DNA of 64,000 nucleotides, from positions 186,001 to 250,000 of the forward strand of contig JAKAWQ010000001.1 of NCBI GenBank assembly GCA_021816925.1. Reading direction: 5' to 3'. Both the position numbers and the translations under genes were made by a program. The notes beneath the pieces are model-generated. The model was given only the letters and a program-made list of their open reading frames with translations. It had not been told where the DNA came from and searched no databases. Each line of letters opens with the position of its first letter. Position 1 is the stretch's first letter. Shown one piece after another: positions 49,276 to 58,106 of the stretch. The DNA comes from Pseudomonadota bacterium (GTDB lineage: Bacteria; Pseudomonadota; Alphaproteobacteria; Acetobacterales; Acetobacteraceae).

Positions 49276-50382
49276 TCAATACAGTACAACGCTGCGGATC
49301 GATTCGCCTTTGGCCATCAGGTCGAAAGCGTCGTTGATGCGCTCGAGCGGCATGGTGTGGGTGATGAGATCATCGATATTGACGCGCCGGTCCATGTACC
49401 AATCGACGATGCGCGGCACGTCCGTGCGCCCCCGCGCGCCGCCGAAGGCGGTCCCCTTCCACACCCGGCCGGTGACAAGCTGGAACGGCCGCGTCGCGAT
49501 TTCCTGCCCCGCCCCGGCCACGCCGATGATGGTGCACACGCCCCAGCCCTTGTGGCAGCACTCGAGTGCCTGGCGCATCAGCGTCGTGTTGCCGACACAT
49601 TCGAAGCTGTAATCGGCCCCGCCGCCGGTCAGCTCGACGAGATGGCCGACAAGGTCGCTGATGCCGGCCGGATTGACGAAATGCGTCACCCCGAACTTGC
49701 GCGCCAGGGCCTCGCGCTTCGCATTGAGATCGACGCCCACGATCATTCCTGCGCCGATCATGTGCGCGCCCTGCACGACGTTGAGGCCGATTCCGCCGAG
49801 CCCGAACACGACCACGCGCGCTCCCGGCTCGACCTTGGCGGTGAAGATCACCGCGCCGATCCCGGTGGTAACGCCGCAGCCGATGTAGCAGACCTTGTCG
49901 AACGGCGCGTCTTTGCGGATCTTCGCCACCGCGATCTCCGGCAGCACCGTGTAGTTGGCGAAGGTCGAGCACCCCATGTAGTGCAGGATCGGCCGGCCAT
50001 TGAGCGAGAACCGGCTCGTTCCGTCGGGCATCAGGCCGCGGCCTTGGGTACTGCGGATTTTCTGGCAGAGATTGGTCTTGCGGCTCAGGCAGTATTCGCA
50101 CTCTCGGCATTCCGGCGTGTAGAGCGGTATCACGTGGTCGCCGGGCTTCACCGAACTCACGCCAGCGCCGACCTCTTGCACGATCCCGGCCCCCTCGTGG
50201 CCGAGGATCGTCGGGAAGAGCCCTTCCGGGTCGGCCCCCGAGAGCGTGTATTTGTCGGTGTGGCAGATGCCGGTCGCCTTGATCTCCACCAGCACCTCCC
50301 CGGCCCGCGGACCCGCCAGCTGGACGTTCTCGATGCTGAGCGGTTTGCCGGCTTCGAACGCAACCGCAGCGCGCGTTTCCAT
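49276..50382 (-). CDS. frmA: S-(hydroxymethyl)glutathione dehydrogenase / class III alcohol dehydrogenase
   Basis: A 368-residue zinc-dependent NAD+ dehydrogenase that oxidises the glutathione adduct of formaldehyde. The catalytic-zinc Cys is in [15 protein letters not shown], the [12 protein letters not shown] segment carries the second ligand, and four structural-zinc cysteines lie in [17 protein letters not shown]. The NAD-fold is [13 protein letters not shown]. The presence of class III residues (Thr-Asp of CHTDKYT) supports formaldehyde use. In this locus it would remove formaldehyde released by XoxF or made elsewhere. Convergent with pqqE. Confidence 0.93.
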
Positions 50383-50463
50383 GACAGAACCTCATTCACC
50401 GGAACGCAGGAAAAGCCGGCGGACCGCTCTGCGAACGGGAGCGGCCCGAGCCGGCGTTGAGAT

Positions 50464-50913
50464 TTAGGCGGCCACCTTGGCGGTCCCCGCCCATCCCTCG
50501 TGCCTGGAAAGCCCGTCGTTCGGGATAGTGATCATCGGATGCTTCGAGCGCGTGAACACCCAGCGATCCGGCTTCGCGCCGAGATCCGCACCCCGCTCCA
50601 GCGTCGGCACGTGAACCAGCACGTAATCGGGGAACGCATCCACATAGAGGAACATGTGACAGCCGCAGGTGCCGCAGAAGCGCCGGTGCGCCGTGGGCTT
50701 GGTGTCGAAGTTCTTGATCTTCTCCTCGTGCGCGGTCACCCGGAACCCGCTCTTCTCGACCACCGCGATAATGGCCATCGCGCCGCCCGAGATGTCGGTG
50801 CAGTCGGTGCAGAGACAGTAATGCACCTCATAGGGTTGCTTCGTGATCTCGAAGCGCACCGGATCGGTGGTGCACCGGCAATGGCCCGTAACATGGATAC
50901 CTGATCCTGACAT
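50464..50913 (-). CDS. GFA-family (glutathione-dependent formaldehyde-activating enzyme-like) protein
   Basis: A 149-residue protein of the Gfa/CENP-V fold. Zinc-binding cysteines are arranged as HCRC at about 11-14, YCLCTDC at about 32-38 and CGTCGCHM at about 80-87. Related proteins condense formaldehyde and glutathione, but many GFA-family members have other or unknown roles. Position directly upstream of frmA on the same strand (81-base gap) supports a formaldehyde role. S-formylglutathione hydrolase is not present in the window. Confidence 0.85.
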   Translation of the reverse strand: MSGSGIHVTGHCRCTTDPVRFEITKQPYEVHYCLCTDCTDISGGAMAIIAVVEKSGFRVTAHEEKIKNFDTKPTAHRRFCGTCGCHMFLYVDAFPDYVLVHVPTLERGADLGAKPDRWVFTRSKHPMITIPNDGLSRHEGWAGTAKVAA

Positions 50914-50983
50914 CGTCCTTTCCTCCCCCTCCGGGATGTTTTCTCTGTCCTAGGCAACGTACCGGCTTTCCGGCATGCGTGAC

Positions 50984-51005
50984 GCGCCTCTGCTCTCAGA
51001 GGCGC
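50984..51005 (-). terminator. Hairpin downstream of the cytochrome c gene, possible terminator
   Basis: A perfect 8-bp stem (gcgcctct / agaggcgc) with a 6-base loop lies about 40 bases past the cytochrome stop and before the GFA gene. There is no T-run on either strand, so it could be a processing or stability element rather than an intrinsic terminator. Confidence 0.4.
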
Positions 51006-51045
51006 CTCCGTTGGGCCTCGTCATCCGCTCCTGCGCCCTTCTCAC

Positions 51046-51402
51046 TCATTTGAGAGAAAGAATCCACTCGACGATCGCCTTGATGTCAGCATCCGACAGC
51101 GTCGGATGCGGCGGCATCGGCACCATGCCCCAGGTGCCGACATGACCGTCCTTCACCGCCTTGACGAGCGTCGCGACCGCATCCTTCTGCCCGGCGAACT
51201 TCTTGGCAATATCCACATAGGAAGGGCCGACCAACTTTTGGTTGACAGCGTGGCAGGTGACGCAATCGTTGCTCTTGTAGAGCTGCTCGCCGAGCGGAAC
51301 CGCCGCCCGAACTGGCCCGGACGCGAGCGCAACCAGCGGCGTGGCAAGCACGGCGGCCGTCACGAGCCTCGCTCCTTTGCGACCCCACCGCTCCGTCATC
51401 AT
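51046..51402 (-). CDS. Small periplasmic cytochrome c (class I, c551-like)
   Basis: A 118-residue monohaem cytochrome. Start at ATG 51402 (an adjacent in-frame ATG is at 51399), with agggaagg just upstream. The signal peptide spans about residues 10-33 (cleavage near VRAAVPL). Haem attaches at CVTCH (Cys47, Cys50, His51), and the distal Met is in GTWGMVPMPPHP. It should carry electrons in the periplasm. A perfect sigma-54 promoter and an upstream element shared with xoxF precede it, which implies that it is the electron carrier serving the XoxF system, between XoxG and the terminal oxidase. Confidence 0.9.
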   Translation of the reverse strand: MMTERWGRKGARLVTAAVLATPLVALASGPVRAAVPLGEQLYKSNDCVTCHAVNQKLVGPSYVDIAKKFAGQKDAVATLVKAVKDGHVGTWGMVPMPPHPTLSDADIKAIVEWILSLK

Positions 51403-51550: not shown

Positions 51551-51566
51551 TGCAAGGCTCGTGCCA
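51551..51566 (-). promoter_or_regulatory. Sigma-54 (-24/-12) promoter of the cytochrome c gene
   Basis: On the minus strand this reads TGGCACGAGCCTTGCA. It matches the sigma-54 consensus TGGCACG-N4-TTGCA at every defined position, and GG and GC are correctly 12 bases apart. Transcription would start near 51540, giving a leader of about 140 bases before ATG 51402. The required enhancer-binding activator gene lies immediately on the other side. Confidence 0.9.
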
Positions 51567-51652: not shown

Positions 51653-51688
51653 GTGACAACAGCGCCAAAAACGAGGACAATCTGTACC
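51653..51688. promoter_or_regulatory. Candidate activator-binding site (UAS) for the cytochrome c sigma-54 promoter
   Basis: GTGACA at 51653-51658 and GGACAATCTGT at 51675-51685. The second block starts 111 bp upstream of the -24 G. The same two blocks with the same promoter distance occur upstream of xoxF (57454-57490). The site also lies 73-108 bp before the activator's own start, so autoregulation is possible. Confidence 0.75.
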
Positions 51689-51760: not shown

Positions 51761-53761
51761 ATGCCAAGGGAGATTCCTGCCGATCCGACGAGCCGGACAG
51801 GTCAGAATGCCGAGAGCCATGCCGAATTCATCCGACAGAGCTGTGCCGGCATCGTGGGCAGCCTGCTCGGGCCGCAGACCGAGTCCTATGTGGTCGCGGC
51901 CTGGGAGCGCTGTCTCCGCGATTATCATCTCGAACCCGGCGGCAACCCGCCGAGCGAGCGGGTCGGCAGCAGGATCCTTGAAAAGAAGCGCGCCCAGCTC
52001 GGCCCGCTCGCGCAGATCGCCCGTGCCGAGATGCGCCGCCTGTTCGGACAGATCGCACCCTCGCACTATCTCCTGCTGCTCGCCGACGCCGAGGGCCTGA
52101 TCCTCGAGCGGATGTGCGAGCCCGGCCATGAGGAACTGCTGCGGCGCGTCGATCTCGCCCCCGGCTTCATCTGGGACGAGCGGCACGAAGGCACCAACGG
52201 TCCCGGCACCTGCCTGCACGACCGCCGCCCGCGGCTCGTGCATCGCGAGGAACATTTCTTCGCGCGCAATGTCCGCATGACCTGTTCGGCGGCGCCGCTC
52301 TGGGGACCGAACGGCCAACTGCTCGGCGCGCTCGACGCCTCGCACTTCGACTGTCCCGACAGTCGGCAAAGCCAAGTGCCGACTCTCGCGCTGGTCAGCA
52401 CCTCGACCCGCATCATCGAGCAGTCCTATTTCACCAGCAGCTTCAAGGATTGCTGGATCCTCCGCTTCCATGACCAGGTCGAGATGGTCGGCCAGTTGCA
52501 CGCCGCGATGCTGGCGGTGGACGAGCATGGCCGCGTGCGTGCCGCCGACAGCACGGCGCCGGCGCGCCTCGGCCTTGCCGGCCATGACTCGCTGGTCGGC
52601 CGTAGCATCGAGGCGCTGTTCGACACCTCCCTCAGCCGCTTCTTCAATGACGCGCAGGCACGGCCGTACCAAATCTGGCCTGCCACGAGCCGCACCGGGC
52701 ATCTCCTCTACGCCGGCATCTGGCCGCCGCAGGAGCCGCCGCCCACGCTCTGGCCGGCCAGAACCACGGATCGGCTGCCGCCGCAGCGCACCGACCTCGC
52801 CGCGCATCGACTTGGCGACCCCGTCATGACGCACAACGTCTGGTGCGCCGAGCGGGTGATGAACCGGGACATCCATATCCTCCTCCAGGGCGAGACCGGA
52901 ACCGGCAAGGACACTTTCGCTCGCGCCATCCATCAAAGCAGCGAACGCTGCGATAAGCCTTTCATCGCGTTGAGCTGCGCGGCGATCCCGGAAACACTGA
53001 TCGAGAGCGAGCTCTTCGGTTACGACGCCGGCGCCTTCACCGGCGCCCGCACCGGGGGCATGCGCGGCAAGGTTGTCGCCGCGCACGGCGGCATCCTCTT
53101 CCTCGACGAGATCGGCGACATGCCACTCGGCCTGCAGGCGCGCCTGCTGCGCTTGCTCGAGGAAAAGGAGGTGATGCCGCTCGGCAGTAGCCGTGCCATC
53201 ACCGTTGATCTGCGCGTCATCAGCGCGACCAACCGCGATCTCCGGCAGATGGTGCTCGAGGGTAGCTTCCGCAAAGATCTCTACTACCGCCTGAGCGGGC
53301 TCGTGCTCACCTTGCCGCCGCTCCGGGAACGGCGCGACATCGAGCAGCTCATCCGTGCCATCGCCGCCGAGGAAAACGAAGGCGCTCCGGTCGCCTTCAC
53401 CCCCGAGGCGCTCGCGACCCTCCTCGCCCACCGCTGGCCCGGCAATATCCGCGAACTGCGGAACACGCTCGCAACCGCGATCGCGCTCGCCGGCGGCGCG
53501 CCTCTCGAATGCAAGCATCTCGGCCGGGACTTTGCCGCTCCGCAGGCTTCGACCTCCTCACCGTGCCACCCGATACCGGCCGCGGATGATTCGGATCCCC
53601 TTGCCGAGGCGGAGCGCGAGAGGCTGTTGCTCGAACTCAAACGACGCCATTGGAACGCAACCGCCACCGCAGCCGCACTCGGCATCAGCCGCAATACGCT
53701 CTATCGCAAGCTGCGCAAGCATGGTGTACGCGTCGGGTCGGACGAACCCGTTGAAAGCTGA
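51761..53761 (+). CDS. Sigma-54-dependent enhancer-binding transcriptional activator (AcoR-like)
   Basis: A 666-residue activator. N-terminal sensory part with a GAF-type domain (about 85-225: LLLLADAEGLILERM, GTNGPGTCL, CSAAPLWGPNGQLLGALD). A PAS-like stretch follows (about 240-320: FHDQVEMVGQLHAAMLAVDEHG). The AAA+ domain has Walker A GETGTGKD (377-384), the sigma-54-contacting GAFTGA (424-429), Walker B GILFLDE (444-450) and the sensor WPGNIRELRN (559-568). A Fis-type helix-turn-helix closes the protein (about 621-653). There is no receiver domain, so it senses a small molecule directly. It is divergent from the cytochrome c gene and convergent with xoxJ. Its predicted targets are both sigma-54 promoters in this locus. 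Confidence 0.93.
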   Translation: MPREIPADPTSRTGQNAESHAEFIRQSCAGIVGSLLGPQTESYVVAAWERCLRDYHLEPGGNPPSERVGSRILEKKRAQLGPLAQIARAEMRRLFGQIAPSHYLLLLADAEGLILERMCEPGHEELLRRVDLAPGFIWDERHEGTNGPGTCLHDRRPRLVHREEHFFARNVRMTCSAAPLWGPNGQLLGALDASHFDCPDSRQSQVPTLALVSTSTRIIEQSYFTSSFKDCWILRFHDQVEMVGQLHAAMLAVDEHGRVRAADSTAPARLGLAGHDSLVGRSIEALFDTSLSRFFNDAQARPYQIWPATSRTGHLLYAGIWPPQEPPPTLWPARTTDRLPPQRTDLAAHRLGDPVMTHNVWCAERVMNRDIHILLQGETGTGKDTFARAIHQSSERCDKPFIALSCAAIPETLIESELFGYDAGAFTGARTGGMRGKVVAAHGGILFLDEIGDMPLGLQARLLRLLEEKEVMPLGSSRAITVDLRVISATNRDLRQMVLEGSFRKDLYYRLSGLVLTLPPLRERRDIEQLIRAIAAEENEGAPVAFTPEALATLLAHRWPGNIRELRNTLATAIALAGGAPLECKHLGRDFAAPQASTSSPCHPIPAADDSDPLAEAERERLLLELKRRHWNATATAAALGISRNTLYRKLRKHGVRVGSDEPVES

Positions 53762-53821: not shown

Positions 53822-54712
53822 TTAGCCGCCGGCGAAGATCACGTGGTTGCGGTCGTCGAGCAGCGGCACGCCGTAACTCTCAAGGATGCGCGTGATCTCC
53901 GGCTGCTCCTTGGCAATGGCCGCATTGAGCGTTCGCCGCCAGGCAACCGCGCCCTGCCGCACGCCCATCACGATGCCGAACGCCATCGGCGGGCCCTCGC
54001 TCGATTCATGCAGGAGCGGCGCTATCGCGAGCCTGCCACCCGAGCGGCTCGCAAAATATCCGGCAATCGGTCCCCACAAAACCCCGATATCGATCTTGCC
54101 GCGCTCAAGGTCGTGTACAAGGCTCCTTGCCGGCGAAAAGAACCGGAGATTGACCGAAAGCTCATAGGCATGGACATGGTCAAGCAGTCCGTTCTCGGCC
54201 AGGATCGTCGCCGGCGGCGTTCCGGCGATGATGCCGATCCGCTTGCCCTTGAGCCGCGGATCCTCGAGGCTTTGGATGCCGTCGAAGCCGGTGTGCGGCC
54301 GGAAGATGAGCGCATAGGTCGATCGATAGTAGGCGTTCGAGTTGGCGACACGCGTCGAACCCTGGGTGATGCCCATCACGACATCGCAACGATAATTGTA
54401 AAGTGTCATGCGCAGGAACCCGAAGACCTGCGGCTGCCAGGTGAACCCGAGCTTCTTGCCCAGGTCCTTGGCAAGGACGGCGGCAATCCGGTTCTCGAAT
54501 CCCTGCCGTGCCTGGTTCGAGAAGGGAAGATCGTTCGGATCCGCGCACACCCGGAAGACGTGCGGATCGACGAGCTCGGCACCGATACCGAGCCCCGGCG
54601 CCTGAGCCAAGGCGCGGCTGGCGAGCACAAGCAGCAATCCAAGCGCAAGGAATACGCTGCGCCAGGCCGCGTGCCGGCCGCGCTCGGCCCTCACATCGAA
54701 ATGCCGAGACAT
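53822..54712 (-). CDS. xoxJ: XoxJ/MoxJ-type periplasmic binding protein of the methanol oxidation system
   Basis: A 296-residue secreted protein of the quinoprotein-dehydrogenase-associated solute-binding family. Start at ATG 54712, overlapping the 3' end of xoxG by 22 bases. The signal VFLALGLLLVLASRALA is cleaved near residue 36. The mature start FRVCADPNDLPFSNQARQGFENRI is diagnostic. It is believed to help mature or activate XoxF rather than to feed a transporter. Third gene of the xoxFGJ operon. Confidence 0.9.
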   Translation of the reverse strand: MSRHFDVRAERGRHAAWRSVFLALGLLLVLASRALAQAPGLGIGAELVDPHVFRVCADPNDLPFSNQARQGFENRIAAVLAKDLGKKLGFTWQPQVFGFLRMTLYNYRCDVVMGITQGSTRVANSNAYYRSTYALIFRPHTGFDGIQSLEDPRLKGKRIGIIAGTPPATILAENGLLDHVHAYELSVNLRFFSPARSLVHDLERGKIDIGVLWGPIAGYFASRSGGRLAIAPLLHESSEGPPMAFGIVMGVRQGAVAWRRTLNAAIAKEQPEITRILESYGVPLLDDRNHVIFAGG

Positions 54713-55218
54713 TTGTACGAGCTTTGGTTGAAACCCTTGGGCGATGCAACGCGCTTCTCCGGCCGGCCGCGCCCGAGTGCGCCGGTCGAGCGGGCGCGCA
54801 GATAGACGTAGATCTCCTGGATGAAGCACATTACATTCCGATCGGTCCCGAACGACGGCATCACCAGATCCTGAGCGGAATTGACCGCTTTGATGCCCCC
54901 CGCGACGTCGGCAATGAACTGGGAGTAGTCGATGCCTTTGAGCGCATGCACGAGGTCCGGCGCGTAGGAGGAGCCCAGGCCGTCCGGTCCGTGGCAGCGC
55001 AGGCAGGTATCGCTGTAGCGCAGATAGCCGACGAATGTGCCCCAATCAACTGTGCCATCCTTGGAAATTTTGTACGTCGGCGCTCCTTGTCGGTCAGTCC
55101 AGATGCCGCCGGACTGCTTGACAGGCTTCGGATTGCCTGGCGCGGCCGCGAGCGCGGCGATGCCGCCCCCGATGGCCAGGGCAATTGCGATGAGGATGAG
55201 GCGGGAACGACCGTTCAC
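54691..55218 (-). CDS. xoxG: XoxG-type c-type cytochrome (four-cysteine, methanol-metabolism family)
   Basis: A 175-residue cytochrome c, the proposed direct electron acceptor of XoxF. GTG start at 55218. The membrane/signal helix is SRLILIAIALAIGGGIAAL. Haem attaches at CLRCHG near residue 72. Two further cysteines (NVMCFIQ near 130 and YKCLG near the C-terminus) complete the four-Cys pattern that defines this family. The likely axial Met is in LVMPSFG. It is located 97 bases after xoxF and overlaps xoxJ. Confidence 0.91.
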   Translation of the reverse strand: MNGRSRLILIAIALAIGGGIAALAAAPGNPKPVKQSGGIWTDRQGAPTYKISKDGTVDWGTFVGYLRYSDTCLRCHGPDGLGSSYAPDLVHALKGIDYSQFIADVAGGIKAVNSAQDLVMPSFGTDRNVMCFIQEIYVYLRARSTGALGRGRPEKRVASPKGFNQSSYKCLGISM

Positions 55219-55315: not shown

Positions 55316-57157
55316 TCACGACCCAGGCAGCGCGAACACCGTGAGCTGACCACCGAGCGCCGTGTAGTTCTTGAGCGCCGCATAGCCGCCAACGGCGCCG
55401 AGCCCCGCGTGCGGATCTGTCAGACCCGCAGCAAGCCCGATGCCCGCCCAGCCGCCGACACCCGAGAGCACCGCGATATACTGCTTGCCGTTGTGCATGT
55501 AGGTCATCACGTTGCCGATGATCCCCGAGGGCGTCTTGAAGTTGTAGAGGATCTTGCCGGTCTTGGCATCGACGGCGCGCAGATACCCTTTCAGCGTGCC
55601 GTAGAAGACCACCCCGCCTGCGGTCGTAAGCGCGCCGCCCCAGTCGGAGAACTGGTCGTGGATTTGCCAGACGGTCTTGCCCGTCACCGGATTGAAGGCG
55701 ATGAAGCGGCCCATGTAGCCGCCTGGCCCAGGGAACATCGAGAGCGTCGCCCCGACATAGGGCTGCCCCGCGGTGTATGCCACCGGATAGGGCTCGTAGT
55801 CCATGCACACGTGGTTGGTCGGCACGTAGAAGAGGCCGGTCTGCGGATCGAAGCTCGCCGGCTGCTCGTCCTTGGCGCCGAGCGCCGCCGGGCAGATGCC
55901 CTTGTAGTTGACGTTGACGCCGCGCGAACCGGGTGCGTACTTCGCCACCACGTTCGGCCGCCCGTAGTTCGGGCTGGACGGGTTCATATCGACCCCGGTC
56001 GTCCAGTTCACGGAGGGGTCGTACTTGTGCACGGCGATCAGCGCACCGGTGGCCCGGTTCAGCACATAGGCCAAGCCGTTGCGGTCGAAGTGGACAAGCG
56101 CCGGCACCTGTTGGCCGTTGATCGTGAGGTCGGCCAGGATCATCTCGTTGACGCCGTCATAGTCCCACTGGTCGTGCGGCGTCATCTGATAGACCCACTT
56201 GGCCACGCCGGTATTCAGGTCGCGGGCGAAGATGGTCATCGACCACTTGTTGTCGCCCGGTCGCTGCACTGGGTTCCAGGTCGAGGGATTGCCCGAACCG
56301 TAATAGAGCAGGTTGAGTTTGGGGTCATAGGAATACCAACCCCACGTGTCTCCGCCCCCGATCTTCCACTGGTCTCCCTTCCACGTCTTCAGGCTCGAAT
56401 CGGCCCCGACCGGCTTGCCGAGCGACATGGTCGTCTTCGGATTCAAGAGAATCATGTTGTCGGGGCCTTCGGAGTAGGCCTTCCAGAGGATGTGCCCGTC
56501 CGTCATGCTGAGCGCGGCAACGAAGCCGTTCACCCCGAACTCACCGCCCGAGACGCCGACGATCACCTTGTCGCCGATTACGAGCGGCGCCTCCGTGCCG
56601 GTTGCGCCGACCTTGTAGCTGGCGAGTGCCGTCGTCCAGTCCACCTTGCCGGTCTTGGCGTCGAGCGCCACCACGGTGTTGTCAGCCTGGTGGAGAATGA
56701 TCTTGCCGTCTCCGTAGGCAACGCCGCGGTTCACCGTATCGCAGCACATCACCGGAATCACTTCCGGATTCTGCGTCGGTGTATATTGCCAAAGGATGCG
56801 TTCGTGGTTGTTGAGATCGAGCGCATAGACGGTGTTCGGGAACGGCGTGACGAGATACATCACGTTTCCGATCACCAGTGGCTGCCCTTCGTGCCCGCGC
56901 AGCACGCCGGTCGAGAAGGTCCACGCCACCTGGAGATGGCTCGCGTTGCTGGCGTTGATCTGATTGAGCGGCGAATAGCGGGTCGAGGCATAATTGAGCG
57001 CCGGTATCGCCCAGTTGTCAGGGCTCGCCGCCGCCTTCGAAAGCGACGGCAGCGAACTGCTCGTCGCGTTCTGCGCCCTAGCCGTCGGCCCCGCCACAAA
57101 TGCTCCCGCCAGCGCACCCAGCGCCGCGCAGGCAACCCATGTACGAGTGCGTTTCAC
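55316..57157 (-). CDS. xoxF: Lanthanide-dependent PQQ methanol/alcohol dehydrogenase XoxF
   Basis: A 613-residue periplasmic quinoprotein. Start at the second of two tandem GTG codons (57157; ggagg lies 6 bases upstream). Signal peptide to about residue 29 ([23 protein letters not shown]). The eight-bladed propeller has W-motif repeats. Adjacent Cys138-Cys139 form the active-site disulfide ring. Predicted metal ligands are Glu206, Asn290 and catalytic Asp332, with an extra Asp334 two residues on (QWDYDGVNE). That second Asp marks XoxF and lanthanide use; calcium MxaF enzymes have Ala there. No mxaI-like small subunit is present. Transcribed from a sigma-54 promoter. Confidence 0.96.
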
Positions 57158-57352: not shown

Positions 57353-57369
57353 AGCAAATGTTATGCCAA
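57353..57369 (-). promoter_or_regulatory. Sigma-54 (-24/-12) promoter of xoxFGJ
   Basis: On the minus strand this reads TTGGCATAACATTTGCT. TGGCA matches the -24 element and TTGCT matches the -12 element; the GG and GC dinucleotides are 12 bases apart as required. It would give a leader of about 185 bases before the xoxF start. It pairs with the upstream element at 57454-57490. Confidence 0.85.
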
Positions 57370-57453
57370 TGCCGCGATTTCCCGGCCCGCGCCGGAATCT
57401 CGGGAAGATTCGATCATCCTCGGCAGCGCTTCCTACTGGATCGCGCCAGGCCC

Positions 57454-57490
57454 GTGACAGAACCGCGAGCAAAAGGGGACAGTCTGTCAC
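57454..57490. promoter_or_regulatory. Candidate activator-binding site (UAS) for the xoxF sigma-54 promoter
   Basis: GTGACA at 57454-57459 and GGACAGTCTGT at 57477-57487, the latter centred on the perfect palindrome GACAG-T-CTGTC. GTGACAG and CTGTCAC also form an outer 7-bp inverted repeat. The second block starts 111 bp upstream of the -24 G, exactly as at the cytochrome c promoter. Confidence 0.78.
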
Positions 57491-57535
57491 AGGGAGGATA
57501 CGGAGCGCTGTCCCTCCCCTGATCGGAGCCGCCGC

Positions 57536-57904
57536 TCAGAAGCAGCGCACCTCGCCCTCCGCCTCGGCTTCACGCAGGCGACGGACGATCTTCTTTGCAG
57601 CGGCCGTACGGAACTCCATGGCCAGGAAACTCTTCTCCTGCTGCATGCGCAGGACCGTCTCCGCTGACACATAGTCCTTGTAGGGAAGGATCGACGCCAC
57701 TACGTCGATGGCGCAGGAGCAACGGTCCAGCGCCTCGTGCGTTTCGCCGTTTACGGCCATGCATCCGAACACGTAATCCGCGCGCGCCGAGGTCGGATAG
57801 TCGTTGGCTGCACTGCCCGCCGGTACAGAGCGGGGAGAAGCGGCAAAGCCGGCCAGGGGAATGGTGATCAACGCGAGCGCCAGCAGTTTTCCCATTTTCC
57901 TCAT
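57536..57904 (-). CDS. Small secreted four-Cys protein, function unknown
   Basis: A 122-residue protein. Start at ATG 57904 (MRKMGKLLALALITIPLAG; ggagg just upstream; an in-frame ATG at 57895 is the alternative). The signal peptide is cleaved near FAASP. The mature part has cysteines in FGCMAVNG, DRCSCAIDVV and the C-terminal VRCF, so two disulfides are possible. The helical segment ILPYKDYVSAETVLRMQQEK follows. No enzyme motif is recognised. It lies upstream of the xoxF promoter on the same strand and inside the PQQ island, so a periplasmic accessory role in alcohol oxidation is plausible but unproven. Confidence 0.72.
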   Translation of the reverse strand: MRKMGKLLALALITIPLAGFAASPRSVPAGSAANDYPTSARADYVFGCMAVNGETHEALDRCSCAIDVVASILPYKDYVSAETVLRMQQEKSFLAMEFRTAAAKKIVRRLREAEAEGEVRCF

Positions 57905-58106
57905 TTCCTCCAAGGGCTGTTTGGGTGCTTCGTCCCGATCACGCTCCGGCCCGCTGTTTTTTCCGTGCCGCCGGCCACGGCCGGCGATCGCATCTTGCAA
58001 GGCGGAAACGTAAGTGGAAAGCTGGCCGATGAAAGGGAGGGCAAAAAAATATTAGGGACCGCGATCCCGCCACAACCTCTTGCAGAATGGGGAAGGATCC
58101 GTTGCC

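Follow-up and report, generated by a model that had tools for sequence, protein, structure and literature searches.

A predicted two-part binding site for an AcoR/DhaR-type sigma-54 activator at the xoxF promoter and a cytochrome c promoter

Introduction

DhaR, the activator of dihydroxyacetone kinase in E. coli, is regulated by DhaK/DhaL. In Bacillus, acetoin catabolism is activated by AcoR. The AcoR operator, GACAAAACGAGACAGATGTCTCATTTTGTC as quoted in PMC12648084, contains GACA-N2-TGTC. This operator is about 30 bp long and has two pairs of sites, one of which is indispensable; neither site 1 nor site 2 can be lost (PMC10018347). MmoR is the sigma-54 activator of soluble methane monooxygenase, and the MmoR protein of Methylocella contains a GAF domain (PMC5874634).

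The switching-on of xoxF has been worked out in just a few model methylotrophs, and the circuits that have been described are two-component systems. The known switches for xoxF and PQQ-ADH include MxcQE-MxbDM, MxaY/MxaB, and PedS2/PedR2, and exaA from Azospirillum is controlled by sigma-54 and a LuxR-type regulator (PMC6115532). In the openly licensed literature, we found no description of xoxF being controlled by sigma-54, AcoR, or an enhancer-binding protein, so within that literature, sigma-54 control of xoxF appears to be undescribed.

Here we analyze a 64-kb stretch of DNA (64,000 nucleotides, which we will call the window) from an Acetobacteraceae genome of 4.3 Mb. An initial annotation proposed that a short palindrome upstream of xoxF is the likely recognition core of the activator that is encoded nearby.

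Results

A sigma-54 activator is linked to xoxF and to genes for formaldehyde oxidation

The relevant genes are:

49276-50382, minus strand: flhA, S-(hydroxymethyl)glutathione dehydrogenase (TIGR02818, 604.7 bits)
50464-50913, minus strand: Gfa, glutathione-dependent formaldehyde-activating enzyme (PF04828, E = 2.7e-20)
51046-51402, minus strand: 118-amino-acid cytochrome c, the gene that comes first behind the second sigma-54 promoter (PF00034, E = 4.4e-12)
51761-53761, plus strand: sigma-54 enhancer-binding protein of the AcoR/DhaR type (Sigma54_activat, PF00158, E = 2.7e-64)
53822-54718, minus strand: periplasmic binding protein of the xoxJ type, encoded downstream of xoxG (TIGR03871, 282.3 bits, above the cut-off)
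54691-55218, minus strand: xoxG-type cytochrome c, downstream of xoxF (TIGR03874, 169.5 bits, above the cut-off)
55316-57157, minus strand: xoxF, PQQ-dependent methanol dehydrogenase (TIGR03075, 715.9 bits; WDYDG motif)

The activator has an intact GAFTGA motif, and GETGTGKD and ILFLDEIGDM match the Walker A and Walker B motifs. At its C terminus (residues 614-654) is a Fis-type helix-turn-helix domain (HTH_8, PF02954, E = 7.6e-10). The N terminus has no match to GAF in Pfam and a weak match to PAS. An AlphaFold2 model of this region, although of low confidence (pLDDT 60), has DhaR(N) as its best match among solved structures (E = 5.5e-9). This resemblance suggests that the activator might be controlled by a small molecule or a partner protein, rather than by phosphorylation.

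The activator gene is divergent from the gene for the 118-amino-acid cytochrome c. The genes for this cytochrome, the Gfa-like protein, and S-(hydroxymethyl)glutathione dehydrogenase follow one another on the minus strand (49276-51402), behind the second sigma-54 promoter. Judging from this layout, cytochrome-gfa-flhA is probably one operon, and formaldehyde oxidation may be under the control of the "cytochrome" promoter.

A 123-amino-acid protein is encoded upstream of xoxF (57539-57907, minus strand). It has no match in Pfam or NCBIfam and appears as an uncharacterized, xoxF-associated protein: relatives are found upstream of xoxF in genome G718 (L080, 660-944) and next to a same-family activator in genome G675 (L081, 6721-6993).

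Both promoters have conserved sigma-54 elements

The pattern TGGCAY-N5-TTGC has exactly two matches in the window, as compared to 0.22 expected, and there is one at each promoter:

57354-57368, minus strand: -24/-12 element of xoxF, TGGCATAACATTTGC, conserved in the congeneric genomes G001, G002, and G004
51552-51566, minus strand: -24/-12 element of the cytochrome gene, TGGCACGAGCCTTGC, conserved in G001, G003, G004, and L052

Both elements have the sequence expected of a promoter that depends on sigma-54 (RpoN), and the genome encodes RpoN (TIGR02395, 382.8 bits, at G000:C60). In G001 and G004, near-copies of the -12 part follow the sigma-54 element, as if the promoter were partly duplicated. 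At xoxF, TCACGGC..TTGCTTGACA occurs twice (L034, 1221-1290, and the same place in G001), and at the cytochrome gene, CACGGGCCTTGCA occurs twice (L049 around 8749, G004, and the same place in G001).

A palindrome within a larger arrangement

The palindrome, GACAGTCTGTC, lies between xoxF and the gene for the 123-amino-acid protein, which are both on the minus strand. It is a perfect 5-1-5 palindrome, as the initial annotation said, and there is a single copy in the 4.3 Mb genome; the annotation's coordinates (57477-57487) were off by one base, as it is at 57478-57488. The window contains 151 bare perfect palindromes of the 5-1-5 form. If up to two mismatches are allowed, the 11-mer is, if anything, rarer than expected (4 matches in the window versus 10.97). 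GTGACA-N18-GACANTCTGT is matched exactly once in the window, versus 0.53 matches expected even if three mismatches are allowed. The rare thing is the arrangement around the palindrome, rather than the bare palindrome.

When we read along each gene, both promoters in the window have a dyad, [G/T]ACA-N3-TGTCC, and then TGTCAC 21-22 bp nearer to the promoter. We predict that these elements form a two-part upstream activating sequence (UAS):

57476-57490, minus strand: site 1 of xoxF, the dyad GTGACA-GAC-TGTCCC, which holds the palindrome
57454-57460, minus strand: site 2 of xoxF, the half-site CTGTCAC, on the promoter-proximal side of site 1
51674-51688, minus strand: site 1 of the cytochrome promoter, GGTACA-GAT-TGTCCT, conserved in five genomes
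51653-51658, minus strand: site 2 of the cytochrome promoter, the half-site TGTCAC, 21 bp away from site 1

At xoxF, the TGTC half-sites are at -113 and -91 from the sigma-54 element, or 22 bp apart, which is two helical turns. From the start of the dyad to the sigma-54 element is 120 bp at both promoters. We compared these to the xoxF promoters of G001, G002, and G004 and the cytochrome promoters of G001, G003, and G004. Across all eight promoters, the half-sites are 21-23 bp apart and the dyad starts 119-123 bp from the promoter. (L052 provides a fifth cytochrome promoter.) Thus, as expected for a UAS, there are half-sites within about 80-150 bp upstream whose sequence and position are both conserved.

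GACA-N3-TGTCC in site 1 and CTGTCAC in site 2 are invariant in all four congeneric xoxF promoters. Overall, 19 of 22 UAS columns are invariant at xoxF, as compared to 25 of the other 103 columns in the stretch leading to the promoter; for the cytochrome promoter, the corresponding fractions are 16/18 and 23/103. Because the UAS columns were picked after viewing the alignment, and because G001 and G004 are close relatives, the Fisher p values of about 1e-7 overstate the significance of these differences.

The exact 11-mer is not the conserved core

The initial annotation treated GACAG-T-CTGTC as the recognition core and the cytochrome counterpart (GACAATCTGTA, at 51676-51686) as a copy that had decayed by one step. 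That the 11-mer alone is recognized would fit with its being a perfect palindrome that is unique in the genome, but we consider this very improbable. First, the G-C pair around the center varies in orthologous xoxF sites (GAG or GAT) and is complementary in only one of four xoxF sites. Second, the other half-site is as well conserved as the palindrome. Third, conservation extends to the cytochrome variant, which is kept in five genomes. This variant differs from the xoxF copy at two positions (G5 to A and C11 to A), and its left arm is retained in all five of the cytochrome promoters that we examined. On the gene strand, the left arm has T in 5/5 cytochrome promoters and G in 4/4 xoxF promoters. 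This consistent split implies that the difference is maintained, so the cytochrome site is a conserved variant and not a decayed copy. We speculate that the left arm could set different strengths for the two promoters.

Similarly, GTGACAG/CTGTCAC does flank the xoxF copy, but it is not a second dyad that is found at xoxF only, as GTGACA is also present at the cytochrome promoter (51653-51658) with nearly equal spacing. What sets xoxF apart is that the left arm of its dyad is completed to GTGACA. The three central bases differ from site to site (GAC, GAG, GAT, AAA, CTT, or GCC) while ACA and TGTC are constant. The best consensus from these alignments is GTGACA-N3-TGTC[C/A]C with a tandem TGTCAC half-site. 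Five of six pairs in the dyad are complementary at xoxF, versus three to five of six at the cytochrome promoter; tighter binding at xoxF, which was predicted previously, is plausible given this symmetry.

Is the repeat an RNA hairpin?

GTGACAG...CTGTCAC could also act in RNA, as a terminator or mRNA-stabilizing hairpin at the 3' end of the upstream gene for the 123-amino-acid protein. The repeat is 46-82 bases past the stop codon of that gene, and the RNA folds better than shuffled sequences do (z = -2.6; 4 of 200 shuffles were equally good). On the other hand, the cytochrome promoter has the same elements without such an upstream gene on that strand. Also, a simple scan called no terminator at the repeat, and G001 and G004 keep the letters of the protein site but have lost the repeat's left arm. 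We rejected a hairpin or terminator as the main function, and it seems a very doubtful explanation overall. Read-through RNA from the gene for the 123-amino-acid protein could fold into a long hairpin here (z = -2.6; 57443-57492, minus strand), which is absent at the cytochrome promoter.

The two-part site is specific to these promoters

Returning to a protein-binding site as the preferred reading, we searched for GTGACA-N15..20-GACA-N3-TGT and found eight matches in five congeneric genomes (~21 Mb), of which exactly two are in the source genome. All eight are at xoxF or cytochrome promoters, while a control search of the same genomes with the reversed motif gave one match.

The initial annotation had also proposed a matrix search with orthologous promoters. 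When we built the matrix from other genomes only, the search found exactly the two promoters that had been named: the window's two sites took the top two ranks among about 128,000 positions. They scored 37.0 and 32.4 bits, and the next unrelated position scored 11.4 bits. That the cytochrome site scored higher is due to the training set and carries no information on affinity.

We also searched 385 genomes from across the class for the pair of half-sites combined with the sigma-54 pattern. Besides the window, there were two matches, which are probably due to chance; neither has a relative of any window protein nearby. Searching the literature for the letters of the motif turned up nothing useful.

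The motif travels with the activator family

In a scan of named genomes, similarity to the window's activator protein led us to three metagenome-assembled genomes from more distant Pseudomonadota (L053-L055; one is from Burkholderiales and two are labelled Proteobacteria). In all three, an activator that is about 50% identical lies directly before xoxF (about 60% identical), and there is a sigma-54 promoter before xoxF. They have TGTCAC at about -113 and TGT[TC]CC near -91, which are close to the positions of the half-sites in the window. Compared to the window, the two half-site variants have swapped places, and the left arm is missing from site 1. All seven of the xoxF-linked activators group in a single clade (support 100/99), apart from the activators that are linked to aldehyde dehydrogenase (ALDH), and this clade spans a genus of Acetobacteraceae as well as the more distant Pseudomonadota.

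Some of the ALDH-linked activators have similar sites. In G038, the genes for a 46% identical homolog and an aldehyde dehydrogenase are divergent, and GTGACA-AAA-TGTCCC lies at a distance of 64 bp from a sigma-54 promoter. Near the ALDH-linked activators in Pseudomonas-like genomes (family f194; this label is based on gene content and our judgement), we found GTGACA-CTT-TGTCCC (in three genomes) or the perfect GTGACA-GCC-TGTCAC. For instance, a perfect 15-bp palindrome, GTGACAGCCTGTCAC (L071, 1339-1353 in the activator's orientation), has an AcoR-like activator on one side and an aldehyde dehydrogenase gene on the other, with further TGTCAC/GTGACA half-sites around it. It would be a good model site for binding tests.

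Half-sites occur at 3.5 per kb upstream of homologous activators, versus 0.47 per kb in the remainder of those loci, or about seven times as often. That the motif travels with the activator family is our main argument that the activator at 51761-53761 binds the motif. There were no matching motifs near the more distant homologs of the enhancer-binding protein from within the family (L007-L014). The xoxF cluster of G718 (L080) has a 42% identical activator; its promoter has only a weaker element (TGGCACGCTACATGC), and we found no clear UAS at that linked xoxF.

Might another protein bind the dyad instead, such as a different enhancer-binding protein or a regulator of the GntR, MarR, or CRP/FNR type? 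The core dyad is short, and the genome does encode other sigma-54 activators. But across genera, the site tracks this clade of activators and their ALDH-linked relatives. Its location about 110 bp upstream of the sigma-54 elements suits an enhancer-binding protein, and one of the two sites lies right beside the activator gene. We view another regulator as quite improbable.

These results partly support the initial annotation. It appears to have identified a real regulatory element and to have credited it to the likeliest protein, and the palindrome lies where the linked Fis-type activator most probably binds, as it had proposed. It erred in the coordinates, the extent of the core, the "decay," and the outer repeat.

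Discussion

A model for activation

We think it highly likely, from these sequence comparisons, that the activator (51761-53761) uses the bipartite UAS and the sigma-54 promoters to switch on xoxF and the formaldehyde genes. The palindrome would be the promoter-distal part of a bipartite enhancer for this AcoR/DhaR-type activator, whose dimer would recognize GTGACA-N3-TGTC[C/A]C. The TGTCAC half-site lies about two helical turns (21-23 bp) nearer to the promoter and on the same face of the DNA, so that protomers could load side by side. An inducer would be sensed by the N-terminal GAF-PAS-type domain, leading to formation of the AAA+ ring. The inducer is probably an alcohol, an aldehyde, or a related metabolite, which is a guess from the targets. 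The DNA in between, some 85 bp counted from the last half-site, would loop, and the GAFTGA loops would then remodel the sigma-54 polymerase at TGGCAY-N5-TTGC, driven by ATP. This would turn on xoxFGJ, and the matching site would turn on cytochrome-gfa-flhA. If cytochrome-gfa-flhA is one operon, then methanol oxidation would be coupled to formaldehyde oxidation. The arrangement fits standard sigma-54 activation, with an enhancer-binding protein acting from about 90-115 bp upstream, and the mechanism itself would be ordinary. The interesting part is the regulatory link to xoxF.

This compact and conserved circuit, with one activator, two promoters, and one motif, offers a directly testable regulator of lanthanide-type methanol oxidation. 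It is relevant to uncultured Acetobacteraceae and to other Pseudomonadota, and the motif could be used to find more xoxF loci that are under the same control. We lean towards the view that this dedicated AcoR/DhaR-type clade is a further route to xoxF, separate from the two-component switches, which responds to an alcohol or aldehyde signal (or to metal status) and co-activates formaldehyde oxidation.

Comparison with known systems

Like AcoR from Bacillus, the window's activator is a sigma-54 AAA+ protein with a Fis-type helix-turn-helix domain, and GACA/TGTC half-sites are common to both. The layout differs: here, the dyad has a 3-bp center and a tandem second half-site that is 21-23 bp away. 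At the window's promoters, we did not find the type of operator that is known from Bacillus (a palindrome of about 30 bp with two pairs of sites), as there is a tandem half-site and no nested palindrome. The targets differ as well, being xoxF and formaldehyde genes instead of aco genes.

The ALDH-linked AcoR-like activators (L062-L071 and G038) have the same GTGACA-N3-TGTC[CA]C, with extra TGTCAC/GTGACA in the divergent intergenic region. However, their target is aldehyde dehydrogenase, and the xoxF-linked activators are a separate clade. The likeness to DhaR is in the N-terminal model (pLDDT 60), which matches its GAF-PAS sensor. In the MmoR system, too, genes of C1 metabolism are under a sigma-54 promoter and have an enhancer-binding protein linked to them, but the target enzyme is another one. 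Finally, the known switches are two-component or LuxR-type systems, whereas this locus links xoxF to a one-component sigma-54 enhancer-binding protein.
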